Shown here: positions 24,347 to 40,279 of the stretch, piece after piece | Layout of the letters: each line of letters opens with the position of its first letter | Position numbering within the stretch: the stretch's first letter is position 1 | Notes under the pieces: model-generated | Told to the model about the DNA's origin: nothing | Seen by the model: the letters and a program-made list of their open reading frames with translations, nothing else | The model's database searches: none | Position numbers and translations under genes: made by a program | Assembly: GCA_913056455.1 (NCBI GenBank) | Contig: CAJXMJ010000001.1 | Coordinates: 682,001 to 746,000, forward strand | Length of the DNA: 64,000 nt | Direction: 5' to 3' | Source of the DNA: an uncultured Fodinibius sp. | GTDB lineage: Bacteria > Bacteroidota > Rhodothermia > Balneolales > Balneolaceae

Positions 24347-25583
24347 CCCATTTTATTCTGTATTACTTTTTTTTGTCTGGCCACTGCTTGCTCTGGTTTC
24401 GGCGTTCCGAAATTATCGGCAGTCATGGGCGAAAAATATATTATGGGCTTTTATTGCTTTTTATGGTTTTACATTTGCTATTGGAGCTGAAAATAAGGGA
24501 ACAGATATTGTAAGGTATATCGAAGACTACCAACAGATGCACAACACTGAGTTAACGGTTTCATCAGCAAAAAAAGAATTGACAAAAAGTGGAGATATAG
24601 ATGTTATTAAAACTGTTATTTCAATTGTATTGTCACGATTTACCGATAATCAATCAATATTAACGTTAGTTTACGGTATTATTTTTGGCTTTTTCTTTTC
24701 GCGTAATATGTGGTTTGTTCTGGAGCATTTGGAAGGGCGTATCAAACCAATTACAATACTACTATTCTTAACCTTTTTTCTGATTATTCCCATTTGGAAT
24801 ATGAATGGATTTCGGTTTTGGACCGCTGCTCATGTTTTTATATACGGATTACTTCCTTTTTTATTTAAGGATGAAAAAGGGAAAGTGGTAATAGCTGCAG
24901 CAGCCGTGTTGATACATTTTGCATTTTTAGTCCCGGTCGGAATTTTGGCAGTATATATTGTAGCAGGGAATAGGCTAACAATTTACTTTGCATTTTTCTT
25001 GGCTACTTTTTTTATATCTGAAATTGATCTTACAGCGTTTAATAATATAGTCGAAACTTACGCTCCTGAAAGTTTGCAAGAGCGAACTGCCGGATATAGG
25101 GGAGAAAAATATGTGGAGAATTTCAGAGATGGCGCAAACGTAAATAATGTAGCATGGTACGTAGAGTGGAATGGACGATTATTGAAATGGGCTGTGATGG
25201 GATTATTAGTACTGCTCTTTGTTAAATCTAAGGCATTGTTAAAAAAGCATAGAGGGTGGTTAAGCTTATACTCTTTTACGCTGTTGTTTTATGGGATGGC
25301 AAATCTGTTAAGTTCATTACCCTCAGGAGGGCGATATATTGCTGTAGCAAATATGATTGCAATAGGTCTATTTGTGCTATATCTCCAAAACAATGAGCAC
25401 AATGTTCTTATGAAAAGAATTACTTTAGCTACGGCCCCGGCTTTACTTCTTTTTATAGTCGTTTCAATTAGAATGGGGTTGTACTCTACCAGTGCGGCAT
25501 CTGTCCTTGGAAATCCTGTTATCGCGATTTTTTTTAACGGAGAACATCTATCGCTTAACGATGTGATGCGACTTATCTTATAA
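24333..25583 (+). CDS. EpsG-like polysaccharide polymerase
   Basis: Integral membrane protein of 416 aa with about ten hydrophobic segments. The loop after the second segment reads GTDIVRYIEDYQQMH, resembling the conserved D-x-x-R/Y-x-x-x-Y motif of EpsG/Wzy polymerases, and NGFRFWTAAHVFIYG resembles the NxxRxxxA motif of that family. It most likely joins repeat units on undecaprenyl diphosphate in the periplasm. It is the only polymerase-like gene in the window. Confidence 0.75.
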   Translation: MKDSNPFYSVLLFFVWPLLALVSAFRNYRQSWAKNILWAFIAFYGFTFAIGAENKGTDIVRYIEDYQQMHNTELTVSSAKKELTKSGDIDVIKTVISIVLSRFTDNQSILTLVYGIIFGFFFSRNMWFVLEHLEGRIKPITILLFLTFFLIIPIWNMNGFRFWTAAHVFIYGLLPFLFKDEKGKVVIAAAAVLIHFAFLVPVGILAVYIVAGNRLTIYFAFFLATFFISEIDLTAFNNIVETYAPESLQERTAGYRGEKYVENFRDGANVNNVAWYVEWNGRLLKWAVMGLLVLLFVKSKALLKKHRGWLSLYSFTLLFYGMANLLSSLPSGGRYIAVANMIAIGLFVLYLQNNEHNVLMKRITLATAPALLLFIVVSIRMGLYSTSAASVLGNPVIAIFFNGEHLSLNDVMRLIL

Positions 25584-25593
25584 TAATCTGACT

Positions 25594-26736
25594 ATGCTTA
25601 AGAATTTAAAAAATATTGCAAGAAGAAATTTGATTAATATTCCCGGATGGAGAACTAATCGAAAGATTGTAGTATTTGAATCGGATGACTGGGGAAGTAT
25701 TAGGATGCCTTCGAAAAAAGTATTTAATAAGCTTTTGTCAGGAGGTATTCGAGTTGACAAATCAATATATGATACGTTTGATACGCTCGAACAAGAAAAA
25801 GATTTAGAATTATTATTTAACACATTAATTGAATTCAGAGATATTTATGGCAAGCCTCCAGTTTTTACATTCAATACAGTTTTAGGAAATCCTGCTTTTG
25901 AAAAAATTAAATATGAGAATTTCAATAATTATTACTACGAAGATTTTTTCACATCATATAGCAAATATTCTGGAAGTAACCTTAAAGATTTATGGTTTAA
26001 TGCGATAGATGAAAAATTAATTCATCCACAATTTCATGCAAGAGAACATTTGAATGTTTCTTTATGGATGGAAGCTCTGCAAAACAACCATAAGCAAACT
26101 AAAATTGCTTTTGATCATGGTTTTTTCGGGTTGAAAACTGAAATCCCGTCTACAAGGCAAAATAATTATTTGGCTGCATATTGGCCTAAGGATGAGGATG
26201 ATTTCAAGCAGAAAATGGGAATTTTAGAAGATGGTTTGGAGCTATTTGAGCAAATATTTGGGTTTGAATCAATTTCATTTATTGCCTGTAATTATATATA
26301 TCCGATAAAAATGGAAGGTAAACTATCAAATTTTGGAATACGGTTTATACAAAATCAATACCGACATTTATCACCAGCATATTCATCTCACAAAGGTGAA
26401 ATAAAGAGTCACTTTACAGGTCAGAAAAATATTTTTAATCAATACCACCTTGTAAGAAATTGTTTTTTTGAACCTACTATAGAAAGAAATAGTGATGTCG
26501 TTAATCAATGTATGATGCAAGTTGAGGCAGCTTTTAGGTGGAGGAAGCCGGCTATTATATCTACTCATCGTATCAATTATGTGGGTGGTTTAGAGATGGA
26601 AAACAGAGTTTATGGAATTAGGAAACTAGAAGATCTTTTAACTCAAATTTTAAAACGTTGGCCCGAAGTTGAGTTTCTATCAACTGAAGCTTTGTCAACT
26701 ATATTGGAAAAAGAAAATGAAAATAGCTATTCATAA
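25594..26736 (+). CDS. Polysaccharide deacetylase-like protein, copy 1
   Basis: Probable metal-dependent deacetylase related to the NodB/CE4 fold. The opening VVFESDDWGS supplies an Asp pair (D31, D32), PQFHAREHLN gives H148-x3-H152, and IISTHRINY gives a late histidine; together these resemble CE4 motifs 1, 2 and 5. There is no signal peptide, so it would act in the cytoplasm on a nucleotide sugar or lipid-linked precursor. A paralogue at 36625 shares GWRTN-KIVVF, H-x-REH-N and the AAFRW-x-x-PAIIS segment. The last 20 bp overlap the ATP-grasp gene that follows. The deacetylase role is inferred from motif pattern only. Confidence 0.65.
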   Translation: MLKNLKNIARRNLINIPGWRTNRKIVVFESDDWGSIRMPSKKVFNKLLSGGIRVDKSIYDTFDTLEQEKDLELLFNTLIEFRDIYGKPPVFTFNTVLGNPAFEKIKYENFNNYYYEDFFTSYSKYSGSNLKDLWFNAIDEKLIHPQFHAREHLNVSLWMEALQNNHKQTKIAFDHGFFGLKTEIPSTRQNNYLAAYWPKDEDDFKQKMGILEDGLELFEQIFGFESISFIACNYIYPIKMEGKLSNFGIRFIQNQYRHLSPAYSSHKGEIKSHFTGQKNIFNQYHLVRNCFFEPTIERNSDVVNQCMMQVEAAFRWRKPAIISTHRINYVGGLEMENRVYGIRKLEDLLTQILKRWPEVEFLSTEALSTILEKENENSYS

Positions 26737-27733
26737 AAAAGAAGGCGATTTCAGTTCCAAATGGATTTCTTATTGCCAGAAGAATAAAATCGATTACAAG
26801 ATTGTAAATTGCTACAAGAATAGTATCGTAGATCAATTAGTTGATTGTGATGCACTAATGTGGCATTTTAGCCATTCTAACCCCAAAGATGTTCTATTTG
26901 CTAAGCAGTTACTTTTTTCTTTACAGTCAGCAGGAAAAAAAGTATTTCCCAATTTCCATACTTCTTGGCATTTTGATGATAAAGTAGGACAAAAGTATCT
27001 ATTAGAAGCAATTGGGGCACCTTTAGTTCCCTCCTATGTATTTTATAATAAGAAAAAAGCATTAGAATGGATTGAAGCGACAACTTTCCCAAAAGTATTT
27101 AAGTTGAGGAAGGGAGCCGGATCAGCCCATGTAAAACTGATAAGCAATAGATCAAGAGCAAAAAAGATAGTTTCAAAAGCATTTTCCAGTGGATTTAGCC
27201 AATATGATAAATTTACGAATTTAAAAGATCGATGGTATAAATTTAATAGTGGGAAAGCTGATTTCTGGGAAGTTGTTAAAGGAATAATGCGAATTTTTAA
27301 AACCACAAATTTTGCAAAAGTAGCAGGAAATGAAATTGGATACGTTTATTTTCAGGACTACTTACCCAACAACGATTGTGATTTCAGAATAGTAGTAATA
27401 AATGATAAAGCTTTTGCCATCAAAAGAGAGGTAAGGGAAGGTGATTTTCGTGCATCAGGAAGTGGGATAAAGGATTTTGATAGAAATTCATTTAATGATG
27501 AAATCATAAGTATTGCATTCGAGGTAGCTGATAGGTTAAAAATGCAAAGTGTAGCTTTTGATTTTTTGTATGATGGGATGACACCTAAAATAGTGGAAAT
27601 AAGTTATGGATTTATGACTCATATATATCCTGGTTTTTGGGATAAAAACTTAAATTGGCATGAAGGATCTTATGATGTTGCTGAACTTATGGTTGAGACA
27701 ATTCTTCCAAAACAGTTGAAACATGAGCATTGA
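26717..27733 (+). CDS. ATP-grasp ligase-like protein
   Basis: RimK-like ATP-grasp protein of 338 aa. ATP-binding lysines are in FPKVFKLRKGAG, a second strand is GYVYFQDYLPNNDCDFRIVVI, and the metal-binding segment is VAFDFLYDGMTPKIVEIS. The usual Glu-x-Asn of that segment reads EIS, so one metal ligand may be changed. An ATG at 26669 is in frame, but the start at 26717 gives the usual MKIAIHKK beginning after a purine-rich leader. Ligases of this type join a carboxylate to an amine. Being coupled to a deacetylase-like gene, it may acylate the freed amino group of a sugar; this is inference. Confidence 0.7.
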   Translation: MKIAIHKKEGDFSSKWISYCQKNKIDYKIVNCYKNSIVDQLVDCDALMWHFSHSNPKDVLFAKQLLFSLQSAGKKVFPNFHTSWHFDDKVGQKYLLEAIGAPLVPSYVFYNKKKALEWIEATTFPKVFKLRKGAGSAHVKLISNRSRAKKIVSKAFSSGFSQYDKFTNLKDRWYKFNSGKADFWEVVKGIMRIFKTTNFAKVAGNEIGYVYFQDYLPNNDCDFRIVVINDKAFAIKREVREGDFRASGSGIKDFDRNSFNDEIISIAFEVADRLKMQSVAFDFLYDGMTPKIVEISYGFMTHIYPGFWDKNLNWHEGSYDVAELMVETILPKQLKHEH

Positions 27734-27807
27734 TCTTTTGGGATTTCTAAATATAATTGTGATGTCAAATATGAGATTGATGTAACAATTTTCTACCATT
27801 TTTGAGT

Positions 27808-29088
27808 ATGAATATATTTGTTGGATTTGTACTTATTTCATTGTCAATTTGTAATGTTCAAAATCCTGATGGAAGTGTCTCAGGAGACCGATCGGCGCTG
27901 ATGGCCTTGTATGAGGCGACGAGCGGTGCGGGCTGGTATAACAACGGTGGTTGGGGTGATGGAAACCCGGATAACTCTTGGCATGGGGTTGAAGTCAACG
28001 CCGACGGCCGTGTGGTGCGGCTGGACCTACAGGATAACGGGCTATCTGGCCAGCTGCCGGCCTCTATTGGGGACCTGACGGCCCTCGAATATTTGAATGT
28101 GAAACAGAATGCCCTACAGGGAACAATCCCTTCGTCGGTCGGAAACCTCTCACAGCTGCGCTATTTGTTGCTTTCCGGCGTTGCCGAAGAACCACCCACC
28201 AATCCCCAGTATAATATTCATCAGGGCAAATCTGATAATAGTGGAAACACCTTTACAGGGACGATTCCCGTTGAAATTGGGAACCTCTCGCAGCTGGAAT
28301 ATATCGAGCTGTCGGGCTCGGAGGTTAGTGGCACGATTCCTGATGAAATCGGCAATGCCACCAATCTTAAGTTTATTGCCTTCAGTTGGAATAAGAACTT
28401 GACCGGGGGCATCCCTTCGACAATCGGGAACCTGCAGAATTTAATTTGGTTTTATGCCCGATCCAGTAACTTGGATGGGACACTACCTGCAGAGCTCGGA
28501 AGTGTGACGAGCCTACGGACCTTTCATGTGGGTGTTAATGATGAGTGGGGCGGGGAAGGATTGCACGGGGAACTTCCTGATTTGAGCAGGCTTACGATGT
28601 TGCGGAATTTAACTTTGGATCATAATAATTTTTCGGGGCCGTGGCCAGACTACTGGAATAACGGAAGCTTCGACAATTTTATCTCCCTGCGAGCCTCATG
28701 GAATAACTTTTCCATTGACCAGCTGCATGGATTTGAAAACCTGACATCGCTGATGGCCTTTTCACTGACCGGGAATACGATCAGCGGAACCCTGCCGCAG
28801 TCAATTACGGCCTTGCGGAATGCGAAGATCATTGGGTTGGGATGGACCGGCATCTCGGGAGAGCTGCCCCAGTCCGGCTGGGAGTTCCATCAGCTGCGGT
28901 TGGTTTATCTAAACAATAATAACCTAACGGGTCATATCCCGGGGTCATTTTTTGAGGCTGCGGATAATCCGTATTTGAAATGGTTATACTTGCAAAACAA
29001 TGAGTTTACCAGTATTGACCGGGAAGCGATGAATAACGTTTCCAGCCCGAAACTCCAAACGATCGATGTCAGTGGGAATAACTTTTAA
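27808..29088 (+). CDS. Secreted LRR protein, duplicate of the repeat domain at 30763
   Basis: A short hydrophobic N-terminus (about 17 residues, MNIFVGFVLISLSICNVQ) is joined directly to a plant-type leucine-rich repeat domain with repeats of the form LSGQLPASIGDLTALEYL. The LRR part is the same, residue for residue, as that of the lipoprotein at 29463, and the coding DNA looks identical over 1,228 bp. The DNA is clearly richer in G+C than its neighbours. The ATG at 27808 is chosen; a TTG two codons earlier is possible. No sigma-54 promoter precedes it. It may be a surface or secreted protein, or a by-product of duplication placed behind a chance signal sequence. Confidence 0.65.
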   Translation: MNIFVGFVLISLSICNVQNPDGSVSGDRSALMALYEATSGAGWYNNGGWGDGNPDNSWHGVEVNADGRVVRLDLQDNGLSGQLPASIGDLTALEYLNVKQNALQGTIPSSVGNLSQLRYLLLSGVAEEPPTNPQYNIHQGKSDNSGNTFTGTIPVEIGNLSQLEYIELSGSEVSGTIPDEIGNATNLKFIAFSWNKNLTGGIPSTIGNLQNLIWFYARSSNLDGTLPAELGSVTSLRTFHVGVNDEWGGEGLHGELPDLSRLTMLRNLTLDHNNFSGPWPDYWNNGSFDNFISLRASWNNFSIDQLHGFENLTSLMAFSLTGNTISGTLPQSITALRNAKIIGLGWTGISGELPQSGWEFHQLRLVYLNNNNLTGHIPGSFFEAADNPYLKWLYLQNNEFTSIDREAMNNVSSPKLQTIDVSGNNF

Positions 29089-29090
29089 AT
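27863..29090. repeat. 1,228-bp direct repeat, copy A (LRR domain)
   Basis: Starts at ATCCTGATGG and ends at ACTTTTAAAT, just past the stop codon. Corresponds to copy B at 30763-31990, offset exactly 2,900 bp with no indels. Every line I compared was identical, and the out-of-frame translations agree too. Confidence 0.9.
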
Positions 29091-29462
29091 GAGAAATATT
29101 CTATACCCCCTCTCTTTTTAAAGATTCGATAGGATGTTAACCTTGAATCTGTACTCGCACATTATGCGATGTTTGCGAACTTTTTTATCCCTTTCCTATT
29201 AAAAAAGTATTCTCTTCTATGATTATTGACTTATATCTATTGCCGTAAATGTATGGCGGGCAATCGAGTAAAAATCCAATATATGTTTATTAGAAAATTT
29301 TAATAATAGTGGAACAATCTCTGTAGATTAGGGGTAGAAAGTCATGTAATAATTACAGCTAAATTACTGTAATTGTTAATTTTAAATAATAAAATATCAT
29401 AAGCTGGTAAGGTTACCCCAATTGCCGGCTGCTTATCTAAACCCCAAATCACTCATAGTATT
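29089..29462. other. 374-bp gap between the two LRR genes
   Basis: A/T-rich. A palindromic GTAATAATTAC core (29346-29356) resembles the activator dyad but the flanks do not match and no sigma-54 promoter with correct 10-nt spacing follows. No terminator hairpin was seen after the first LRR gene. Confidence 0.35.
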
Positions 29463-31988
29463 ATGAGATCTAAATTATTGTACCCCATAGCAGCTATTCT
29501 GTTGCTTATTGCATTTGTGCAGTGTGATAATGCAGTAACAAGTTCCAACACTTCAGAACAGGAAGAAGAGCTCCCTATACCAGAGCTGGTATCTCCTACG
29601 AATAACTCTACGAACCAATCAATTCAGGTAGAGTTAAACTGGAAAAGAATAAAAGGAGCGAAAGATTATAAAATCCAACTATCTAAATATGAAAGCTTTG
29701 AATCTACTTTAGTGGATAGCGTGGTTGAAGGTAGCTCATATGAGACCCCAGAACTTGAAACGGAGACTACATACTTTTGGCGTGTAAAACCGTTTAAAAG
29801 AAATTATGAAGGTCCTTGGTCAGAAACTTGGAATTTTAAGACCTCAGGCGGAGAATCAAATACTGTTAGCGTTGGATTAATTTCTCCTGAGGATGATCAA
29901 CAACTTGATACGGTGAGTCCTACATTTGAGTGGGAGACAGTATCTGATGCTGTGGAATATCATTACCAGTTGTCGAACGATCAAAATTTTTCTGAGGTAG
30001 TCAAAGATTCAGTAGTAGAATCATCCCCGCTCATTGTTTCACAATTAACACATAATGAGAAATACTTCTGGCGGGTAAGTCCCATTTTAGATAATGCTAC
30101 AGGGGTTTGGTCAGATACTCTTACTTTTTCTACACCAGAGAATACCACCAATGATGCTGGTAATTTATCTGTTCCTGATCCGATTTCACCTGATGATGGA
30201 GCTAGTGAGATACCATTAGAGCCTACTTTTGAGTGGAAGTCAGTTGAAGGAGCAGACTATTATATTTTACATAGTAGCAGGCGGGATCCTTCAGAAATGG
30301 TTATCGAAACAAAGGTTAATAAGACGACATTCACCCCTAGTAATGATTTGGACACTGGTACAATGTACGACTGGAGAGTACGAGCAGTAAGTGGCGATAC
30401 GAAAGGAGAGTGGTCCGAGATTCTAAATTTTCAGACTACCTCAGATGGGTCTGATGATTCAGGTGGTACAACGGAAGTATCTCTTATTTCTCCGTCTGAT
30501 GGTGCATCCAATCAATCCACAGTTACCACACTTGACTGGGAACCCATTTCTGGCATTAATAGCTATCGTGTACAATTAGCAACGAGTAGTGGTTTCTCTT
30601 CGCCTATATTAGACCAGTCAGTTTCAACCACGTCCTATGAAACCTCCGAATTACAATATAATCAACAATACTACTGGAGAGTCCAATCGGAAAATGATGG
30701 CGATTTACAAAACTGGTCATCTATACGAAGTTTTACGACCGAGACAGAAACATCAGATAACGATCCTGATGGAAGTGTCTCAGGAGACCGATCGGCGCTG
30801 ATGGCCTTGTATGAGGCGACGAGCGGTGCGGGCTGGTATAACAACGGTGGTTGGGGTGATGGAAACCCGGATAACTCTTGGCATGGGGTTGAAGTCAACG
30901 CCGACGGCCGTGTGGTGCGGCTGGACCTACAGGATAACGGGCTATCTGGCCAGCTGCCGGCCTCTATTGGGGACCTGACGGCCCTCGAATATTTGAATGT
31001 GAAACAGAATGCCCTACAGGGAACAATCCCTTCGTCGGTCGGAAACCTCTCACAGCTGCGCTATTTGTTGCTTTCCGGCGTTGCCGAAGAACCACCCACC
31101 AATCCCCAGTATAATATTCATCAGGGCAAATCTGATAATAGTGGAAACACCTTTACAGGGACGATTCCCGTTGAAATTGGGAACCTCTCGCAGCTGGAAT
31201 ATATCGAGCTGTCGGGCTCGGAGGTTAGTGGCACGATTCCTGATGAAATCGGCAATGCCACCAATCTTAAGTTTATTGCCTTCAGTTGGAATAAGAACTT
31301 GACCGGGGGCATCCCTTCGACAATCGGGAACCTGCAGAATTTAATTTGGTTTTATGCCCGATCCAGTAACTTGGATGGGACACTACCTGCAGAGCTCGGA
31401 AGTGTGACGAGCCTACGGACCTTTCATGTGGGTGTTAATGATGAGTGGGGCGGGGAAGGATTGCACGGGGAACTTCCTGATTTGAGCAGGCTTACGATGT
31501 TGCGGAATTTAACTTTGGATCATAATAATTTTTCGGGGCCGTGGCCAGACTACTGGAATAACGGAAGCTTCGACAATTTTATCTCCCTGCGAGCCTCATG
31601 GAATAACTTTTCCATTGACCAGCTGCATGGATTTGAAAACCTGACATCGCTGATGGCCTTTTCACTGACCGGGAATACGATCAGCGGAACCCTGCCGCAG
31701 TCAATTACGGCCTTGCGGAATGCGAAGATCATTGGGTTGGGATGGACCGGCATCTCGGGAGAGCTGCCCCAGTCCGGCTGGGAGTTCCATCAGCTGCGGT
31801 TGGTTTATCTAAACAATAATAACCTAACGGGTCATATCCCGGGGTCATTTTTTGAGGCTGCGGATAATCCGTATTTGAAATGGTTATACTTGCAAAACAA
31901 TGAGTTTACCAGTATTGACCGGGAAGCGATGAATAACGTTTCCAGCCCGAAACTCCAAACGATCGATGTCAGTGGGAATAACTTTTAA
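29463..31988 (+). CDS. Lipoprotein with four FN3-like repeats and an LRR domain
   Basis: Probable surface lipoprotein of 841 aa. The N-terminus is a lipoprotein signal with the acceptor cysteine at residue 21 (IAFVQC). Four repeats of about 90-100 residues follow (roughly 38-126, 135-224, 233-327, 336-428), each with a SPxDxxxx beginning, a central tryptophan and a YxWRV strand, as in fibronectin type III domains. From residue 434 on it is a plant-type LRR domain of 408 residues, shared exactly with the gene at 27808. The domains suggest binding to glycan or protein at the cell surface. It is closed by a strong terminator and has no sigma-54 promoter. Confidence 0.8.
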   Translation: MRSKLLYPIAAILLLIAFVQCDNAVTSSNTSEQEEELPIPELVSPTNNSTNQSIQVELNWKRIKGAKDYKIQLSKYESFESTLVDSVVEGSSYETPELETETTYFWRVKPFKRNYEGPWSETWNFKTSGGESNTVSVGLISPEDDQQLDTVSPTFEWETVSDAVEYHYQLSNDQNFSEVVKDSVVESSPLIVSQLTHNEKYFWRVSPILDNATGVWSDTLTFSTPENTTNDAGNLSVPDPISPDDGASEIPLEPTFEWKSVEGADYYILHSSRRDPSEMVIETKVNKTTFTPSNDLDTGTMYDWRVRAVSGDTKGEWSEILNFQTTSDGSDDSGGTTEVSLISPSDGASNQSTVTTLDWEPISGINSYRVQLATSSGFSSPILDQSVSTTSYETSELQYNQQYYWRVQSENDGDLQNWSSIRSFTTETETSDNDPDGSVSGDRSALMALYEATSGAGWYNNGGWGDGNPDNSWHGVEVNADGRVVRLDLQDNGLSGQLPASIGDLTALEYLNVKQNALQGTIPSSVGNLSQLRYLLLSGVAEEPPTNPQYNIHQGKSDNSGNTFTGTIPVEIGNLSQLEYIELSGSEVSGTIPDEIGNATNLKFIAFSWNKNLTGGIPSTIGNLQNLIWFYARSSNLDGTLPAELGSVTSLRTFHVGVNDEWGGEGLHGELPDLSRLTMLRNLTLDHNNFSGPWPDYWNNGSFDNFISLRASWNNFSIDQLHGFENLTSLMAFSLTGNTISGTLPQSITALRNAKIIGLGWTGISGELPQSGWEFHQLRLVYLNNNNLTGHIPGSFFEAADNPYLKWLYLQNNEFTSIDREAMNNVSSPKLQTIDVSGNNF

Positions 31989-31990
31989 AT
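30763..31990. repeat. 1,228-bp direct repeat, copy B (LRR domain)
   Basis: Second copy of the LRR cassette, same orientation, exactly 2,900 bp after copy A. The left boundary falls within a linker codon (Asp-Pro-Asp-Gly), the right boundary just after the stop codon. Confidence 0.9.
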
Positions 31991-32032
31991 AAGCAGGTTT
32001 TAACTTTTTACAGCACTTACCGTTAGTCATTT

Positions 32033-32073
32033 AAAGGCCGGTATTGTCATGTGACAATACCGGCCTTTCTTTT
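32033..32073. terminator. Strong rho-independent terminator
   Basis: AAAGGCCGGTATTGTCA (32033-32049) pairs perfectly with TGACAATACCGGCCTTT (32052-32068); a T-rich tail CTTTTGT follows. The A-run in front makes it likely to work in both directions. It separates the LRR lipoprotein gene from the next glycan unit. Confidence 0.9.
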
Positions 32074-32200
32074 GTCAAAATTAAAAGAAAAGGGCTTAGT
32101 TACCTTAAGGTAAATTAGGGTAAATACCTTTATTTACAGAGTAGACTAATTACAATAACAATGAAAAATGAATATCCAAAGATTAAGTATGCTCAATAAA

Positions 32201-32217
32201 TGAGTAAGAATTACTCA
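32201..32217. promoter_or_regulatory. Activator dyad, near-perfect
   Basis: TGAGTAAGAATTACTCA: both 7-bp halves are exact inverted copies around GAA. It ends 135 bp upstream of the sigma-54 promoter at 32353. Confidence 0.7.
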
Positions 32218-32352
32218 TCATCAAGGATAAATTATTTCCCTCCTCATTTTAGTTGAATTTAAATGCCCGGAATAAAGTGATAAGTGTATTTAAATGTATC
32301 TTTTAAAGTCAGTTCAGTAGAATATTTGTTTAAATTTAATTTATAGAAAAAA

Positions 32353-32368
32353 TGGCACAGGTATTGTA
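32353..32368 (+). promoter_or_regulatory. Sigma-54 promoter of the 32443-37767 unit
   Basis: TGGCACAGGTATTGTA: TGGCAC is the full -24 consensus; GG and GT are 10 nt apart. Predicted start near 32378, about 65 nt before the ATG. Confidence 0.8.
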
Positions 32369-32442
32369 ATACTATAGTTGAAAGGTAAAATGAAACTTTT
32401 CAATTATGGTAAAAAAATGTCTAATCCTTATACCTGAAAAAG

Positions 32443-33120
32443 ATGATAAAAAAAGAAATAGTAATAATTGGGTTATTAGGTTTGGTGTTAATTTCAAATA
32501 CTTCTTGTAAAGGAGACTTAACCAGCAATGATCCGGATCTTATCGAATCTCTGGAACCAGTCGAAGAGGTGTTTGTTATTGAAGGAGCTGAAAGTGCTAC
32601 TATTAAAGTAAATATAAATCGAGATCAAGAGGCTTATTTTAGCTTGCAGTTTAGTGATATTAAGTCAAATGCTGTCATAGAAAACGGCTTATTAATAGGA
32701 TGGTGTATTGATGCCTTCAAACCTATAAATAGCAACAACGGAACTTATTCCAATATTAAACTCTACTCTACACATTTAGTTGAAAAGTGGAAACCTCTTA
32801 ATTATTTACTCAATATCGGAGAAGCGTTGAGACAAGCTGACCCTGAAATAAGCTGGCTTGAAATACAACTGGCCATTTGGTCGCTCCGTTCAAATCCAAA
32901 GTTTGTGTTGGATGAAGTTAATATTGCTGATCTTCCTGGGCAGTTCAGAAGAAATGAAAATCAGCCAACATACAACGAGGCTAAGGTTAGGGAAATACTG
33001 AATGTTGTAGATGATGAATATAAAACATTCGATTTTACAGAACAGGGAGTAAAATTCGCTGTAATTGCTGAATTACCTGAAGACTTACAAACATTGATTA
33101 CAGTGGTTAAAGTTAAATGA
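32443..33120 (+). CDS. Lipoprotein of unknown function
   Basis: A lipoprotein signal with lipobox ISNTSC (Cys22) is followed by about 200 residues that I do not recognise as a known family. A segment GWCIDAFKPI...GTYSNIKLYS resembles cysteine-containing domains in some secreted bacterial proteins, but the match is too loose to name. It is the first gene after a dyad plus sigma-54 promoter and lies 1 bp before a glycosyltransferase gene, so it is certainly part of the glycan regulon by position. It may be an envelope partner of polymer assembly or export. Confidence 0.6.
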   Translation: MIKKEIVIIGLLGLVLISNTSCKGDLTSNDPDLIESLEPVEEVFVIEGAESATIKVNINRDQEAYFSLQFSDIKSNAVIENGLLIGWCIDAFKPINSNNGTYSNIKLYSTHLVEKWKPLNYLLNIGEALRQADPEISWLEIQLAIWSLRSNPKFVLDEVNIADLPGQFRRNENQPTYNEAKVREILNVVDDEYKTFDFTEQGVKFAVIAELPEDLQTLITVVKVK

Positions 33121-33121
33121 T

Positions 33122-34204
33122 ATGAAGACTATTTGCCTTGTAATTCATTCACTGGGGATCGGGGGAATGGAACGGGTAATGGCTCAGCTTGCAAATAATT
33201 TTGCTAACAGACCTGATGTTCGTGTTCATCTGGTTTTGATTGGGAAAAAACGAGAAGTTAAGTACCAATTATCAAGTTTGGTTAGTGTTCACAGTCCGAA
33301 GTTTACGTTTAAAAGCTACCGACGAAAGATAGATACATTAAGAACGATTAAATTTCTGAGATTCAAAGTAAAGGAAATTAAACCTGATGTAGTTCTGAGT
33401 TTGGGAGAGATATGGAATAATTTTGTCTTAATTGCTCTTTATGGGTTAAAAACACCTGTTTTTATATCTGATAGATGCCAGCCGAATAAATCGTTGGGTA
33501 AAATTCATAACTGGCTTAGAAAAATGCTATATCCCCAAGCGGCTGGAGTAATAGCTCAAACCAGGGAGGCAATGCAGATATATGAGCAACAGAATCTTAG
33601 TGAAAATTTTAAAGTTATAGGTAACCCAATCTATGAAATTCCATCAAATGGTAAACATGAAAAAGAAAATATTATTCTCACGGTTGGACGATTAATTAAA
33701 TCGAAACACCACGACCGATTGATTAAAATATTCAAACACTTGTCTCCTGAAGGATGGAAGTTAGTTATTGTAGGAGGCAATGCCTTAAATCAAGATGGAT
33801 TTGAAAGGTTAAAACGAATAATTCTTGAAAATAGATTGGAGGATAAAGTTAATCTCGCAGGTTCTGTTTTGGATATTGCGACTTACTATAATCAAAGCAA
33901 AATATTTGCATTTACTTCCAGTTCTGAAGGATTTCCAAATGTAATAGGTGAAGCAATGTCGGCGGGATTGCCAGTGGTTTCTTATGATTGTGAATTCGGC
34001 CCTTCTGATATGATTGAAGATGAGCGTAATGGCTTTTTAATACCATTATTTGATGATGAACTATTTGCTGAAAAATTAGGGCAGTTGATTAATAATGAAA
34101 ACAAAAGAATTGAGATGGGAGCTCAAGGCAAAATGTTGGCCAAAAAGTTTTCATCTAATGAAATTGCAGAACATTATTACTCTTTTTTAACTAATAGCTT
34201 ATGA
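33122..34204 (+). CDS. Family 4 glycosyltransferase
   Basis: GT-B fold. The N-terminus has the glycine-rich SLGIGGMERVMAQLA, the second domain opens with ILTVGRLIKSKHHDRLI, and the nucleotide-sugar site includes SSEGFPNVIGEAMSAGLPVVSYD with the E-x7-E pattern. The 360-aa length is typical. Its stop overlaps the ATG of the next glycosyltransferase (ATGA), so expression is coupled. Donor and acceptor are unknown. Confidence 0.88.
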   Translation: MKTICLVIHSLGIGGMERVMAQLANNFANRPDVRVHLVLIGKKREVKYQLSSLVSVHSPKFTFKSYRRKIDTLRTIKFLRFKVKEIKPDVVLSLGEIWNNFVLIALYGLKTPVFISDRCQPNKSLGKIHNWLRKMLYPQAAGVIAQTREAMQIYEQQNLSENFKVIGNPIYEIPSNGKHEKENIILTVGRLIKSKHHDRLIKIFKHLSPEGWKLVIVGGNALNQDGFERLKRIILENRLEDKVNLAGSVLDIATYYNQSKIFAFTSSSEGFPNVIGEAMSAGLPVVSYDCEFGPSDMIEDERNGFLIPLFDDELFAEKLGQLINNENKRIEMGAQGKMLAKKFSSNEIAEHYYSFLTNSL

Positions 34205-35436
34205 AAGTCCTGCAAATAAATACAACTGCCAATACAGGGAGTACCGGAAGAATTGCTGAAGAAATTGGGCTTATGTTTCAGAAGCAGGGACACGAGAGTT
34301 TTATAGCTTGCAAAAGTGTTGGGCCAAGTGGGAGTACTTCTCAAATTATTCGGATTGGGAATAAATTTGATGAATATATGCACGGTATTAAGTCACGTGG
34401 ACTAGATCGTCATGGCTTTGGATCAAAATGTGCCACTGAAAATCTGGTAAATGAAATTGATCGTATAGATCCTGATATCATCGGACTCCACAATGTGCAT
34501 GGGTATTATCTAAACGTTGAAATACTGTTCAAGTATTTGAAGGCTGTAAAGAAACCAATTGTCTGGACTTTACACGATTGTTGGCCCTTTACCGGACATT
34601 GCAGTCATTTTGAATATGTTTCGTGTGATAAATGGAAAACGGAATGTGGAAAATGCCCTCTATACAACAGATATCCAGCAAGTTGGTTAGTGGATAATTC
34701 TAAGAAGAATTTTCAACAAAAAAAGAAGCTATTTAACGGGATAAATAATTTAACATTAGTAACGCCCAGTCAGTGGTTAAAGAATCAAGTAAGTGAATCA
34801 TTTTTATCTGATTATCAGGTAGAGGTCATCCACAATGGAATTGATTTGGATTGTTTTCAACCTATTGAAAAAAATGAGTTAATATCTACTTATGGATTAA
34901 GTGAGAAGAAAGTAGTATTGGGTGTTGCAAGTGTCTGGGACCGAATAAAGGGTTTGGGGTATTTTATTGATTTAAGCAAGCGACTTGATGATAGTTTTCA
35001 AATTATATTGATAGGGTTACCTGAGAAAAAAATTAAAGAACTCCCAGCGAATATGGTTGGTCTTCAGCGTACTGAAAATGTTGAAATGTTAGCAGCTTTT
35101 TATAGTGCTGCTAATGTGTTTGTAAATACTACCTTGGTAGATAACTTCCCTACTACTAATCTTGAAGCATTAGCTTGTGGTACACCTGTGATCACTTTTG
35201 ATACAGGCGGCAGTCCAGAATCTATTGATGATGAAACGGGTACGGTGGTTCCAAAAGGTGATGTTGATGCATTATATAAAGCTGTGTTAAATATGACGAG
35301 CAAGGAGAAGAGTAGGTACAGCGAAAAGTGTAGAGCTCGTGCTTTACAGTATTACAATAAAGAAGATCGGTTTAAGGATCATCAGAATATTTACGAAAGT
35401 GCTTTGCAAACACCATACATAGTCAGAGGCAAGTAA
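34201..35436 (+). CDS. Family 4 glycosyltransferase
   Basis: GT-B fold, 411 aa. The opening MKVLQINTTANTGSTGRIAEEIG and the HNVHGYYLN and WTLHDCWPFTGHCSHF segments are characteristic of WcaC-like transferases, including the cysteine-rich stretch CDKWKTECGKCP. The donor-binding loop is TTNLEALACGTPVITFDTGGSPE. It overlaps the previous gene by 4 bp and ends 5 bp before the next. Confidence 0.88.
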   Translation: MKVLQINTTANTGSTGRIAEEIGLMFQKQGHESFIACKSVGPSGSTSQIIRIGNKFDEYMHGIKSRGLDRHGFGSKCATENLVNEIDRIDPDIIGLHNVHGYYLNVEILFKYLKAVKKPIVWTLHDCWPFTGHCSHFEYVSCDKWKTECGKCPLYNRYPASWLVDNSKKNFQQKKKLFNGINNLTLVTPSQWLKNQVSESFLSDYQVEVIHNGIDLDCFQPIEKNELISTYGLSEKKVVLGVASVWDRIKGLGYFIDLSKRLDDSFQIILIGLPEKKIKELPANMVGLQRTENVEMLAAFYSAANVFVNTTLVDNFPTTNLEALACGTPVITFDTGGSPESIDDETGTVVPKGDVDALYKAVLNMTSKEKSRYSEKCRARALQYYNKEDRFKDHQNIYESALQTPYIVRGK

Positions 35437-35441
35437 AAGGG

Positions 35442-36644
35442 ATGGAATCTCAAAAAATTGTAGTAGTAAACCAAGCTGTAAACTATCTGACGATTGGACT
35501 ATGCAATGCTTTTGCAAAAAAGTTCAGTCAGGTTGACCTGATAACAGGAAGTATACATGAGCAGGGAGAACCCCTTGATGAGGCTGTTAGCGTAAGCCAT
35601 ATCGGGCACTGGATTGAAAGACCTATGTGGAAAAAGTCGGTTTCTTATTTGTGGGCTTGTGTACAAATTTATTGGTTGCTGTTGACTCGATATCATAAGC
35701 ATGATGTTTTTTTTGTCTCCTTGCCACCCATGGCTTATCTACTGTCGCTATTTCTGCCCAATAGATGTAGCATGCTCATTTGGGATGTTTACCCTGATGT
35801 CTTTAAAATTACTGGGATGAAGGAATCACATTTAGTGTACCGTATTTGGAGCTGGTTAAACAATAAAACTTTTAAAAAAGCTCATCGACTCTATACTATC
35901 GGAGATAAGATGGCTGATTTACTATCAAAATATGTTGACCGAAAACAGATTCTGGTGACACCTATTTGGTCGATATTTCAACAGAACCAGAAGATCAAAA
36001 AATCGATTAATCCTTTTGTAAAAAAACATCAGTTGCATCGGAAATTTGTGGTACAATATTCAGGCAATATAGGACTTACACACAATGTCGAAATCTTGGT
36101 TAAATTGGCTGAGATGATGAAAGGTCACGAAGATATTTTGTTTCAAATTATTGGCCGAGGGCCGCGCGTTCCATATTTGCAAGCTGTTGTAGTTGAAAAA
36201 GGGTTACCAAACTGTCAATTCTTGCCGTTTCAATCTGATGAAATGTTTCCGTATTCATTGTCAGCTGCAGATATTGGAGTAGTCATTTTGGATAATGTCA
36301 TATCAAAAGGTAGTGTCCCAAGTAAATCTTACAATTTAATGAGTTACGGTATACCCTCACTTTATATCGCTTCTTATGATTCTGAGCTCTATAATTATAG
36401 TCAAAAATATAAGCATGCCAAGTGTGTGAATTATTCAGATTTAAACGAAGCAGTAGCATTTATCCTTGAGCTAAAAAATAACAGCGAACTTAGAGAGCAA
36501 TTTGCTCAAAATGCTCTTGATGCCTCGAAGAACTATCGCCGGAGCAATGCAGATTTTATAACAAAATTATATTGTGATAAAATACATCAAGGACAATCAA
36601 GTAATAAATTAGTGGCAACAGAAGATGTCTCTGAATACGCTTAA
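35442..36644 (+). CDS. GT-B glycosyltransferase
   Basis: Probable family-4-like transferase of 400 aa. One hydrophobic stretch is near residues 68-83 and another near 92-108, compatible with membrane association. The second domain has VVQYSGNIGLTHNVEILVKLAEMM and the donor loop ISKGSVPSKSYNLMSYGIPSLYI. Good ribosome-binding sequence AAAGGG precedes the ATG. The last 20 bp overlap the deacetylase-like gene. Confidence 0.8.
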   Translation: MESQKIVVVNQAVNYLTIGLCNAFAKKFSQVDLITGSIHEQGEPLDEAVSVSHIGHWIERPMWKKSVSYLWACVQIYWLLLTRYHKHDVFFVSLPPMAYLLSLFLPNRCSMLIWDVYPDVFKITGMKESHLVYRIWSWLNNKTFKKAHRLYTIGDKMADLLSKYVDRKQILVTPIWSIFQQNQKIKKSINPFVKKHQLHRKFVVQYSGNIGLTHNVEILVKLAEMMKGHEDILFQIIGRGPRVPYLQAVVVEKGLPNCQFLPFQSDEMFPYSLSAADIGVVILDNVISKGSVPSKSYNLMSYGIPSLYIASYDSELYNYSQKYKHAKCVNYSDLNEAVAFILELKNNSELREQFAQNALDASKNYRRSNADFITKLYCDKIHQGQSSNKLVATEDVSEYA

Positions 36645-37767
36645 AAATACTTTAACCCTCAACGCCAAAAATCTTATTGGTTGGCGTACTAATAAAAAGA
36701 TTGTGGTCTTTTCCGTTGATGATTATGGTAATGTCCGGCTTGATTCCAAGGCTGCACGTGCTCGAATGGATCGACAGGGAGTATCTGTGTACAATCGTTT
36801 TGATGCATTGGATACCCTCGAGACAAAACAAGACCTTGAAGCTCTCTATGAGGTTCTAACTACAGTAAGAGACCAAAACGATCGTTTTCCTGTTTTTACT
36901 ACCTTTGCAGTTCCTTGCAATATTAATTTTGAAAAAGTAGAGCAGAGTGGGTTTAGTCGTTATGCCTATGAATCACTGCCGCAGACGTTTGAAAAATTAT
37001 CTGTTCGGCATCCTCAAGCATATCGTGGGACATGGGAATTGCTGAAAGAAGGAATTGCTGAAGGCTTGATGGTACCACAATTTCATGGACGAGAGCATGT
37101 AAATTTGAAAGTCTTTAACGAAAAATTGGAGGCAGGGGATGATCAACTTTTAAATTGCCTGCAGAACCGATCTTTTACCAGTATATCTGATAGTGGCTAT
37201 CAAACTATTTCACCCATGGCCGCTTTCGATTTTTGGAAGTTTGATGAAAATGAAGAATTACAATCAATTATAGTAGATGGCTTAGATCAATTTGAAAAAG
37301 TATTTGGATATCGTGCCGAACACTTTACTCCACCTGTGTTTAATGTTCATCCGATATTGTATAAAACACTGAATAGATGTGGTATCCGTTTTGTTGATAC
37401 GGCTCTAGTTTCTCATCAGCATCAAGGAAAAGGAAAATTTAAATACGAATACAACTATACAGGAAAAACAAAAGAACAACTTTGCCTAATGGTTAGAAAT
37501 GTTGTTTTCGAACCTACCGATAATCGGGGCGTTGATTGGATATCATATGCTATGGAACAGATTGAGGCAGCCTTTCGATGGAATCGTCCAGCGATTATTA
37601 GTTCACATCGAGTAAACTTTTGTGGACATATTGATGAGAAAAATAGAGAGAAGGGACTTGATGCATTAGGAAAATTGTTAATGAAAATAACTGAGCGATG
37701 GCCGGAAGTGGAATTTATGTCAGCTAATGAAGTTGGGGAACTAATTCGTCCTCCACAGGATGCGTAA
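36625..37767 (+). CDS. Polysaccharide deacetylase-like protein, copy 2
   Basis: Paralogue of the gene at 25594 with the same length (380 aa). It has VVFSVDDYGN (D32, D33), PQFHGREHVN (H154, H158) and IISSHRVNF, matching the metal and catalytic positions expected of a NodB/CE4-like deacetylase. No signal peptide is seen, so the substrate is probably a cytoplasmic sugar intermediate. An ATP-grasp gene follows, as it does for copy 1, but here a sigma-54 promoter sits between the two. The 3' end overlaps an activator dyad. The function is inferred from motifs and context. Confidence 0.65.
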   Translation: MSLNTLKNTLTLNAKNLIGWRTNKKIVVFSVDDYGNVRLDSKAARARMDRQGVSVYNRFDALDTLETKQDLEALYEVLTTVRDQNDRFPVFTTFAVPCNINFEKVEQSGFSRYAYESLPQTFEKLSVRHPQAYRGTWELLKEGIAEGLMVPQFHGREHVNLKVFNEKLEAGDDQLLNCLQNRSFTSISDSGYQTISPMAAFDFWKFDENEELQSIIVDGLDQFEKVFGYRAEHFTPPVFNVHPILYKTLNRCGIRFVDTALVSHQHQGKGKFKYEYNYTGKTKEQLCLMVRNVVFEPTDNRGVDWISYAMEQIEAAFRWNRPAIISSHRVNFCGHIDEKNREKGLDALGKLLMKITERWPEVEFMSANEVGELIRPPQDA

Positions 37768-37777
37768 TTTTTACGCA
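37761..37777. promoter_or_regulatory. Activator dyad overlapping a stop codon
   Basis: TGCGTAATTTTTACGCA, a perfect 7-3-7 palindrome. It differs from TGAGTAAnnnTTACTCA by a symmetrical A to C change. It overlaps the stop codon of the deacetylase-like gene and ends 110 bp before the sigma-54 promoter at 37888. Confidence 0.65.
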
Positions 37778-37887
37778 ATATGGTCAAACTATATACTCAA
37801 TTTTTTCGGGGCTTATTTTTGATTAAAAAATAGGGCTCAGTAACTCCTGCTTATCTATTATTTTTCTATAGAAGTCAGTTATTTGAT

Positions 37888-37903
37888 TGGCACACCTTTT
37901 GTA
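37888..37903 (+). promoter_or_regulatory. Sigma-54 promoter of the 37979-40279 unit
   Basis: TGGCACACCTTTTGTA: full -24 consensus TGGCAC, GG and GT 10 nt apart. Predicted start near 37913, about 65 nt leader. Confidence 0.8.
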
Positions 37904-37978
37904 GCCTTAATGGTAATATAGATGGGGTAACGCCCAGTGGCAAAATACTGATAGGAAAACTGGTTTTCTTCTAAGGAA

Positions 37979-39001
37979 ATGATTCGGATAGGAATGAAAT
38001 TAAAGAGAGCTATATATTTGGGATATTACATTAAACAACTTGAAAGGGAAAAGTTTAGCCGATTTCTAAACCATGTCAGGTTGGTCACCGGCACTTCGAA
38101 GATGGCTATTATGTTTGATGTGATAACATCAGTCTTCACTTATAATATTTCGGTATTGGAGTATTTTCAGTTTCAGTTTTATAAACTATCAAAAAAAGAA
38201 CGGGAAACTTGGGCTGGTACTGGCCATATGTATGAATACCAGTTACGTATGAATCCGATAAAAAGTCGCCATATCTTAGAGAACAAAGCGCTTTTCTATA
38301 AATATTATGGTGATTTTTTTATTCACAATGTTGCTGTTCTTGAAGATCTTAAAACAAAGCCCAAAGCATCGTCAGCAATTCTTTCAAATCCATCCGGCAA
38401 ATTAGTTTTTAAATCTGTTGATGGTAACTGTGGTACCGAGGTAGAAATACGGGATTGTCGAGATTTTGATAGCAAAAGTATGATTTCATATATGGAAAAG
38501 TCGAACTATGGACTTGTTGAAGATTTCATAGTTCAGCATCCAGTGTTAAATCAATTGTCATCTTCTGCTGTAAATACAATTCGTATATTCACACAACTGG
38601 ATAGTAATGGGAGCGTAGATATTCTGGGATGCCGTCTCCGTATTTCGATCGAGTCACCGGTTGATAATATGGCCGCAGGAAATATTGCTGCACCTATAGA
38701 CGAGCAAACAGGTTGCCTAAGTGGACCGGGAGTTTACAGCGATATTACAAAGGAAGAGGAGCAGTTTCATCCCATCACCGATGTTAAAATTATCGGATTC
38801 CAGATCCCATTTTGGAGGGAAACGCTTGAGATGGTGAAGGAGGCTGCTCTTTTACATCCTCAAAATGGGTCGATCGGATGGGATGTAGTAATTACCAAAG
38901 AGGGGCCAGGATTAATTGAGGGAAATCATGACTGGTGTAAACTGCTTTGGCAACTTCCGGTTAAAAGAGGATTAAAGTTGATGTTAAAAGATTATGATTA
39001 G
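37979..39001 (+). CDS. Sugar-transfer associated ATP-grasp protein
   Basis: ATP-grasp enzyme of the kind found next to sugar transferases in capsule loci. KLVFKSVDGNCGTEVEI carries the ATP-binding lysine, LVEDFIVQHPVLNQLSSSAVNTIRIFTQ is the characteristic middle strand, and GWDVVITKEGPGLIEGNHDW is the metal-binding end with Glu-x-Asn intact. The protein is 340 aa. A start at 37994 (MKLKRAI) is also possible. It overlaps the priming transferase gene by 8 bp. It probably forms an amide between a carboxylate and a sugar amine, but the substrates are unknown. Confidence 0.8.
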   Translation: MIRIGMKLKRAIYLGYYIKQLEREKFSRFLNHVRLVTGTSKMAIMFDVITSVFTYNISVLEYFQFQFYKLSKKERETWAGTGHMYEYQLRMNPIKSRHILENKALFYKYYGDFFIHNVAVLEDLKTKPKASSAILSNPSGKLVFKSVDGNCGTEVEIRDCRDFDSKSMISYMEKSNYGLVEDFIVQHPVLNQLSSSAVNTIRIFTQLDSNGSVDILGCRLRISIESPVDNMAAGNIAAPIDEQTGCLSGPGVYSDITKEEEQFHPITDVKIIGFQIPFWRETLEMVKEAALLHPQNGSIGWDVVITKEGPGLIEGNHDWCKLLWQLPVKRGLKLMLKDYD

Positions 39002-39614
39002 AGTGATGGTATATAAACGTTATTTAAAACGGGCAATGGATATTATTGCGGCTATGATAATATTTGTGCTAATACTACCAATATTTTTACTGATCTCAGT
39101 TCTGTTATTTTTTCAGAATAGGGGAAAGGTCTTTTTTTATCAAGAGCGAGTAGGTTATAAAGAAAGGATAATTAAGATTATTAAGTTTAAAACAATGACG
39201 GATGAAAAAAGTGCTAATGGGGATTTATTGCCGGATGTAGAACGTATTACCCGATTGGGAGAATGGATTCGTAACTTATCACTGGATGAACTACCTCAGC
39301 TTTTCAATGTATTAAAAGGAGATATGAGTTTGATTGGACCTCGTCCGCTGTTGCCGAAGTATTTGCCTCTTTATTCTGAACGCCAGCATCGTCGGCATGA
39401 GGTTAAACCCGGAATAACTGGTTGGGCCCAGGTAAATGGACGAAATTCCATTAGCTGGACACAAAAATTTGAACATGATCTTTATTACGTAGAGAACCAG
39501 TCTTTAGGGCTTGATCTCAGAATATTGGGCATGACTTTTATAAAAGTATTGTGTAAAGAAGGAATAAATCAGTCCGAAATACGGCCGATGCAACCATTTG
39601 ACGGGACAAACTAA
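38994..39614 (+). CDS. Undecaprenyl-phosphate sugar phosphotransferase (PglC type)
   Basis: Small initiating transferase that loads the first sugar phosphate onto undecaprenyl phosphate. One membrane segment (IIAAMIIFVLILPIFLLISVLLF) is followed by the catalytic region FKTMTDEKSANGDLLPD, the Leu-Asp-Glu-Leu-Pro-Gln segment, IGPRPLLPKYLPLY and VKPGITGWAQVNGRN. At about 200 aa it is the monotopic short form, as PglC. The true start may be the ATG at 39006. The neighbouring acetyltransferase, and the aminotransferase and dehydratase further on, suggest UDP-diacetylbacillosamine as donor. Confidence 0.9.
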   Translation: MIRVMVYKRYLKRAMDIIAAMIIFVLILPIFLLISVLLFFQNRGKVFFYQERVGYKERIIKIIKFKTMTDEKSANGDLLPDVERITRLGEWIRNLSLDELPQLFNVLKGDMSLIGPRPLLPKYLPLYSERQHRRHEVKPGITGWAQVNGRNSISWTQKFEHDLYYVENQSLGLDLRILGMTFIKVLCKEGINQSEIRPMQPFDGTN

Positions 39615-40279
39615 TGAAAAAAAAACTTTTTATTATTGGAGCTGGTAGTGTAGGCGGTCATATTGCTTATAACATTACTGAATATTCTGATGAATTTGTT
39701 ATTGCGGGATTTTTTGATGATGACCTTCAAAAAGTTGGTACTTCTCAATTTGGGGTTAAAATACTCGGTACAGTAGATGAGGTGCTTAAACTTAAAGATG
39801 CCCATATTGTTATTGGTATTTCTTTTCCAAAAATAAAGCAAAAAATTATCAAGCTTTTATCTTCTAATTCAACGCTGAAATTTCCAACACTGGTCCATTC
39901 AAGAGCTTGGATATCAAATGGGGTATCACTGGGTAAGGGATCCATTATTTATCCCGGTACTGCAATTAATTACGGATCAAACATTGATGATTTTGTATGT
40001 ATCAATATGAACTGCTCTTTAGGGCATCATACCAAGGTTGGACGTTATGTAAGTTTGGCTCCGGGAGTAAACACAGGAGGGTATACTACAGTGGAAGATG
40101 GGGTGGAGATAGGAATTGGTACCTCAACACTACAAAAAGTGTGCATTGGAAGGGAAAGTATTATCGGAGGTCAGACAATGGTTATCGAGGATATCACAGC
40201 AGGGGCTACAGCAGTGGGTGTGCCAGCAAAAACTATATCGACCTCTTTAGCAGCAGTCTTTAATAATTCTGAAAAATAA
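39614..40279 (+). CDS. Sugar N-acetyltransferase (PglD/NeuD type)
   Basis: Acetyl-CoA-dependent acetyltransferase with an N-terminal Rossmann-like sugar-binding region (LFIIGAGSVGGHIAYNI) and a C-terminal left-handed beta helix of hexapeptide repeats. The catalytic histidine is expected in NCSLGHHTKVG and the end is AVGVPAKTI. The 221-aa length matches PglD. It starts at the last base of the PglC-like gene. With the aminotransferase at 44193 and dehydratase at 45707 it would complete UDP-N,N'-diacetylbacillosamine or a related 4-amino sugar. Confidence 0.85.
   Translation: MKKKLFIIGAGSVGGHIAYNITEYSDEFVIAGFFDDDLQKVGTSQFGVKILGTVDEVLKLKDAHIVIGISFPKIKQKIIKLLSSNSTLKFPTLVHSRAWISNGVSLGKGSIIYPGTAINYGSNIDDFVCINMNCSLGHHTKVGRYVSLAPGVNTGGYTTVEDGVEIGIGTSTLQKVCIGRESIIGGQTMVIEDITAGATAVGVPAKTISTSLAAVFNNSEK

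Follow-up and report, generated by a model that had tools for sequence, protein, structure and literature searches.

Paired deacetylase-like paralogues and their ATP-grasp partners in a polysaccharide locus of an uncultured Fodinibius sp.

Data and question

Why does a single polysaccharide locus carry two related deacetylase-like genes, each followed by a gene for an ATP-grasp protein? The question is raised by an uncultured Fodinibius sp. (Balneolaceae; assembly GCA_913056455.1), in which positions 682,001 to 746,000 of contig CAJXMJ010000001.1, a stretch of 64,000 nucleotides here called the window, were analyzed. The window is a polysaccharide locus, and at two places among its open reading frames (ORFs) a CE4-like gene precedes an ATP-grasp gene. 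Here we report that the two CE4-like proteins, CE4A and CE4B, are members of a paired family which numerous bacteria carry. This suggests a common, still unnamed route by which amino acids or other acids would be placed on surface sugars. The four genes of the modules and the grounds on which they were assigned are given below.

25594..26736, + strand: CE4A, type I deacetylase-like protein of 380 aa (ORF; invariant motifs D31, D32, H148, H152, R288, N289, H325, R326; AlphaFold2 model; CE4-type fold)
26717..27733, + strand: ATPgA, RimK/LysX-like ATP-grasp ligase of 338 aa (PF08443; AlphaFold2 model; structure matches; co-occurrence)
36625..37767, + strand: CE4B, type II deacetylase-like paralogue of 380 aa (identity to CE4A; clade II in trees; identical invariant residues)
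37979..39001, + strand: ATPgB, sugar-transfer associated ATP-grasp protein of 340 aa (PF14397; invariant K103, K145, D302, E314, N316)

An initial annotation, made from the sequence alone, had described two paralogous, cytoplasmic CE4-like proteins with Asp-Asp, HxREH and S-x-HR motifs, each followed by an ATP-grasp protein of a different subfamily. The two ORFs with all three motifs lie where it had placed them and share 36% identity over their full length (211 bits by BLASTP), and hydropathy revealed no N-terminal signal or membrane helix in CE4A, CE4B, ATPgA or ATPgB. An ATP-grasp gene does follow each of them. The open frame of ATPgA covers 26669-27733 and its likely start is the ATG at 26717, 20 bp inside the end of CE4A. 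As a correction to the annotation, ATPgB starts 211 bp downstream of CE4B, and it is the initiating transferase gene (38994) that it overlaps instead, by 8 bp at its own end.

Fold and predicted active site of the deacetylase-like proteins

The metal site had been proposed as a point to be checked by structure prediction, and the model returned a CE4-type fold. The AlphaFold2 model of CE4A, for which 37 homologues were used as input, reached a predicted local distance difference test (pLDDT) score of 93.7. Its closest solved structure is the polysaccharide deacetylase 3rxz (VIA-align Z 19.3, root-mean-square deviation 3.3, 248 aligned), followed by HP0310 (Z 19.2), the heparan sulfate N-deacetylase NDST1 (17.9) and the deformylase ArnD (16.5); Foldseek gave E values of 2e-7 to HP0310 and 9e-7 to ArnD. 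GH57 enzymes and the PuuE allantoinase were, like ArnD, also among the fold matches. The sole sequence matches of CE4A and CE4B in the PDB were designed helical-repeat proteins, which were rejected as matches through a helical stretch.

Across 158 relatives, of either type, no variation was seen at D31, D32, H148, H152, R288, N289, H325 or R326. The D-D pair and the H-x3-H spacing with a C-terminal His are the arrangement of CE4 enzymes, and judged by the conserved residues the Asp-His-His metal site, the catalytic Asp and the C-terminal His of CE4 are all present. In the predicted site the metal would be bound by D32, H148 and H152, with D31 as the putative base and H325 as the putative acid. 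The idea that one paralogue is a dead pseudoenzyme was rejected, as the site residues are invariant in type I and type II alike. From the model and these residues we infer that CE4A and CE4B are probably metal-dependent N-deacetylases. By sequence they are a new family of putative deacetylases, which has no name in Pfam or NCBIfam.

Two-type pairing of the family

The distribution of the family was surveyed in two ways. In the first survey a profile of CE4A and CE4B was run against 296 genomes of the phylum, and the family was present in 18 of them, with at least two copies in 15 of those 18. In the second survey genome contigs were scanned, giving 414 relatives, of which the first 80 were taken and 77 loci kept; genes in the relatives were called as simple ORFs. 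The two surveys partly share genomes, and identical sequences were removed before the types were counted. Most of the relatives belong to Bacteroidota, Chlorobi and Ignavibacteria; a small number come from Gammaproteobacteria, Halomonas maura and Arenimonas among them, and no relatives were found on viral contigs.

In a tree of 37 members the type II clade, which holds CE4B, has a support of 99/98; in a tree of 158 members its support is moderate (0.70), type I being the remainder. The main difference between the types is a loop near motif 3, where type I has Tyr or Trp (Y234) and type II has Gly (G234). One type I and one type II member were found in 42 of the 46 independent two-copy loci, where about half would be expected (p 2e-9), and in 28 loci the type I gene comes immediately after the type II gene. 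The two types are thus a conserved hetero-pair, irrespective of the type of ligase. In Halomonas maura, a known and culturable exopolysaccharide producer, a single locus (L064) combines the polymerase with both deacetylase types and a PF14397 ATP-grasp gene. Fodinibius roseus (L071) is another cultured carrier of the family.

The ATP-grasp partners

ATPgA matches PF08443 (RimK) with 30.7 bits against a cut-off of 21, and TIGR00768, the RimK glutamate ligase family, with 54.4 bits, below its cut-off of 143.4. Its AlphaFold2 model (pLDDT 90.5) is closest to LysX (Z 24.4) and RimK (Z 23.8), enzymes which add amino acids via acyl phosphates, at an identity of 17-20%. ATPgB matches PF14397 (ATPgrasp_ST) with 147.1 bits against a cut-off of 31.4, and its residues K103, K145, D302, E314 and N316 are invariant. 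As the two ligases show no significant mutual similarity, they do represent two different subfamilies. In one relative (L079, 4365-6476) the ATPgA homologue is fused to the glycosyltransferase GT4b, which ties ATPgA to glycan assembly. Another locus (L040, 1977-9942) has four PF14397-type ATP-grasp genes in tandem, with two RimK-like ligase genes and a type I deacetylase gene as neighbours, an arrangement that would suit the addition of several acids or of a short peptide.

Co-occurrence and conserved neighbourhood

A genome-neighbourhood analysis had been recommended as a check on the association, and in it the RimK-like ligase accompanies the deacetylase family far more often than chance would give. 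ATPgA orthologues are present in 16 of the 296 genomes, 14 of these 16 have the deacetylases and 14 of the 18 deacetylase genomes have ATPgA (p ~1e-18, a Fisher test that counts related genomes as independent). At genus level, which mends kinship only partly, the overlap is 7/9 and 7/9 (p 7e-9). For NeuD, a common glycan gene that served as control and was counted only above its cut-off, there is no comparable link (7/18 deacetylase genomes vs 96/296 overall). ATPgB orthologues occur in 4 of the 296 genomes, all of them deacetylase carriers.

The neighbouring genes of the window that are named in what follows are these.

14417-15820: nucleotide-sugar dehydrogenase (ORF list)
21102..23153, + strand: AsnB-type amidotransferase, found just after type I in relatives (TIGR01536; enrichment near type I)
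23186..24346, + strand: GT4a glycosyltransferase, kept beside the polymerase in 39 loci (Pfam; synteny)
24333..25583, + strand: EpsG/Wzy-type polymerase, whose place immediately before a type I or a type II gene is conserved (PF14897; synteny)
33122..34204, + strand: GT4b glycosyltransferase, whose homologue usually follows ATPgA (synteny)
35442..36644, + strand: GT4d glycosyltransferase, overlapping the start of CE4B (ORF; Pfam; synteny)
38994..39614, + strand: initiating sugar-phosphate transferase (PF02397)
39614..40279, + strand: NeuD/PglD-type sugar N-acetyltransferase (TIGR03570 over cut-off)

The usual order in relatives is GT4a, EpsG polymerase, (type II), type I, CapA, AsnB, RimK-like ligase, GT4b, GT4d and initiating transferase, and a separate type II gene is often near GT4d and the initiating transferase. 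At positions +1 to +3 of type I the RimK-like ligase occupies 33 of 243 places (5/376 in the background), the CapA-like PF09587 protein 27/243 and AsnB 23/243 (0/376 each), and NeuD is not enriched (1/243 vs 15/376). Where type II has no adjacent type I, a PF14397 ATP-grasp gene is directly downstream in 7 of 31 cases. The partners of the deacetylase loci besides ATP-grasp proteins include AsnB, CapA-like proteins and acyltransferases. In one locus (L032) the ATPgB position is filled by an AMP-ligase-like protein with a weak match to PF00501, and acyltransferases lie downstream of both deacetylases in another (L048). In L034 the CE4B orthologue is immediately preceded by a canonical PF01522 deacetylase, close to TIGR03006, and a neighbouring PRK12767-like ATP-grasp of a third, unrelated kind, and this is an independent instance of the deacetylase and ATP-grasp combination. 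With neither ATP-grasp type present in about a third of the long loci, the ligase is a common partner of the deacetylases and not a fixed one.

Two further groups were noticed in the neighbourhood. CapA-like genes (L103, 11116-12249, and others) lie within three genes of type I and are absent from the distant background; MslH, a lasso-peptide Trp epimerase, is the sole NCBIfam match of this protein (1.5e-26, under the cut-off), which hints at a possible epimerisation of an amino acid. In about 18 loci besides L045 (520-3040) a FabH-like ketosynthase gene adjoins a further conserved ORF and a gene for a NeuD-type acetyltransferase close to the initiating transferase, which may mean that an amino sugar carries hydroxyacyl groups.

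Proposed route and rival explanations

We propose a scheme of paired deacetylation followed by re-acylation of the freed amines by ligases. It draws on the fold, the conserved site, the overlapping genes, the co-occurrence and the way in which amide-forming partners replace one another; in it we infer the activity, the substrate, the order of the steps and the use of the freed amine by the ligases. CE4A and CE4B would act in the cytoplasm on two different amino sugars, or at two stages, of a single repeat unit built on undecaprenyl phosphate. The amine freed on the type I residue would be acylated, most often by ATPgA, with an amino acid or other carboxylate through an ATP-driven acyl phosphate; ATPgB would acylate the amine freed on the residue handled by type II, close to the initiating sugar, and AsnB would probably amidate a uronic acid within that repeat unit. 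That PF14397 ATP-grasps, the AMP-ligase-like protein and acyltransferases interchange in equivalent position supports this scheme. We give the whole of it a probability of about 0.45, a little below even. A broader form, in which the two-paralogue deacetylases are a general N-acyl exchange platform of polysaccharide loci in Bacteroidota and some Gammaproteobacteria, with two residues re-acylated with amino acids by ATP-grasps and a CapA-like partner altering the attached amino acid, is speculative and rather unlikely.

Several observations weigh against the scheme. No Pfam or NCBIfam family, PF01522 and its relatives included, matched CE4A or CE4B, so that the CE4 assignment rests on fold and motifs, and a two-row profile comparison with two PF01522 proteins gave a probability of 17%, too weak to use. 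ATPgA has a Ser in place of the last metal-binding Asn of RimK-type enzymes. Neither ATP-grasp type is present in 21 of 68 long loci, and two genomes (G269, G273) have the ligase without deacetylases, so the link is strong and not obligatory. Of the annotation's two-module N-acyl reading the fold and the association have held up; the modules are not independent and self-contained, since the hetero-pair is kept irrespective of the ligase and so many loci do without an ATP-grasp. The absence of CE4 recognition by sequence families, together with GH57, PuuE and ArnD among the fold matches, would also suit a CE4/GH57-like barrel used for another hydrolysis, such as deformylation or imide or glycoside cleavage; the invariant D-D, HxxxH and C-terminal His form the CE4 arrangement and speak against this reading, which we regard as the least probable.

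The acceptor of the ligases could also be the carboxyl of a uronic acid instead of a freed amine. In this main rival, somewhat unlikely in our judgement, the deacetylases and the ligases work on separate groups: CE4A and CE4B leave amines of the polymer free and the ATP-grasps join amino acids to uronic acids, a type of amide linkage which occurs in O-antigens. A uronic acid is likely, as the window encodes the nucleotide-sugar dehydrogenase and a UDP-GlcNAc 2-epimerase-like gene (ORF list); the ligase is commoner near GT4b than directly beside the deacetylase, besides its fusion to GT4b, and the ligase-only genomes would fit as well. What this rival leaves unexplained is the joint gain and loss of ligase and deacetylase, even inside one genus, and the overlap of the CE4A and ATPgA genes. 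In a quite improbable alternative CE4A and CE4B share one sugar, acting one after the other or joined as a hetero-oligomer, and the acyl groups are then determined by the strain's own acyltransferase or ligase. The 28 loci with type II directly upstream of type I, the independence of the pairing from the ligase type and the restriction of most of the type difference to one loop are in its favour; in the window and many relatives, however, kilobases separate the two genes, with type I beside the polymerase and type II beside the initiating transferase, an arrangement that fits two different residues better.

Comparison with known systems

The annotation knew of no described pathway with this pair of enzymes, a claim that is not correct, since in Porphyromonas gingivalis and Tannerella forsythia a deacetylate-then-aminoacylate route to the Wbp/Vim linking sugar has been proposed, backed by mutant and mass-spectrometry data (PMC7468200). 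There VimE is a putative CE4 deacetylase and VimA an aminoacyl transferase whose exchange between the species changes serine to glycine, and WbpS, an AsnB-like amidotransferase, makes a uronamide (PMC7468200). The likeness lies in the proposed release of an amine by a CE4 enzyme, the amino acid attached to this amine and the AsnB-like partner. The systems differ in that VimA is FemAB/acetyltransferase-like whereas the ligase here is an ATP-grasp, in one deacetylase against a pair, and in the Wbp/Vim product, which links cargo proteins. At the window locus no VimA-type FemAB gene stands beside a deacetylase, and each CE4-like gene is followed by an ATP-grasp gene. FemAB-type loci were reached via TIGR03019 in three genomes and then in 198 Bacteroidales genomes. 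The FemAB-linked deacetylases of Bacteroidales are of the PF01522 type and do not match the CE4A/CE4B family (VimE itself was not among the sequences compared), and this family was found in 0 of 30 such loci within flanks of 1.5 kb.

The XrtA/PEP-CTERM exopolysaccharide loci likewise bring together a deacetylase (TIGR03006), an amino-acid-transferring FemAB protein (TIGR03019) and an AsnB-like amidotransferase (TIGR03108); their deacetylase is a canonical PF01522/DUF3473 protein, and neither a paralogue pair nor an ATP-grasp is defined there. A deacetylase/FemAB pair of this type is also present in the host genome (L001, 261-2292), with scores of 276.0 vs a cut-off of 276.2 bits and 156 vs 260.

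ATPgB is a member of PF14397, whose Pfam name, sugar-transfer associated ATP-grasp, gives no substrate, and a link of PF14397 with the CE4A/CE4B family was not found in the open literature searched. ATPgA shares fold and PF08443 with RimK and LysX and differs from them in its low identity, its score below the TIGR00768 cut-off and its setting in glycan loci. NDST1 and ArnD have the barrel fold of CE4A at about 12-13% identity and work with another second enzyme: NDST1 deacetylates and then re-substitutes the nitrogen, and ArnD acts on a bacterial lipid-linked sugar. The open literature searched yielded no study of the CE4A/CE4B family and none of an ATP-grasp with a CE4 enzyme in an O-antigen locus. 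The deacetylate-then-acylate logic is already published, and the system described here departs from it in the deacetylase family, its paired paralogues and the ATP-grasp ligase.

Other features of the locus

An exact direct repeat of 1,228 bp is present at 27863-29090 and 30763-31990. Through it a shorter ORF (27802-29088), directly downstream of ATPgA, repeats the leucine-rich end of an 841-aa gene (29463-31988); the cause could be antigenic variation, a duplication of recent date or a fault in the assembly. A putative lipoprotein of 225 aa with no Pfam match is encoded at 32443-33120, and similar-sized ORFs are found at the equivalent place in L032 and L033.

Value of the data

ATP-grasp proteins have been unexplained in glycan loci, and the acceptor predicted here, a freed amine, is directly testable. 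If the scheme is true, the paired genes would represent an ATP-grasp route by which amino acids and other acids are joined to the sugar nitrogens of exopolysaccharides in many environmental and gut Bacteroidota. It would also give a function to a family that is nameless in Pfam and NCBIfam, and the family would serve as a genomic marker of amino-acid-bearing glycans.

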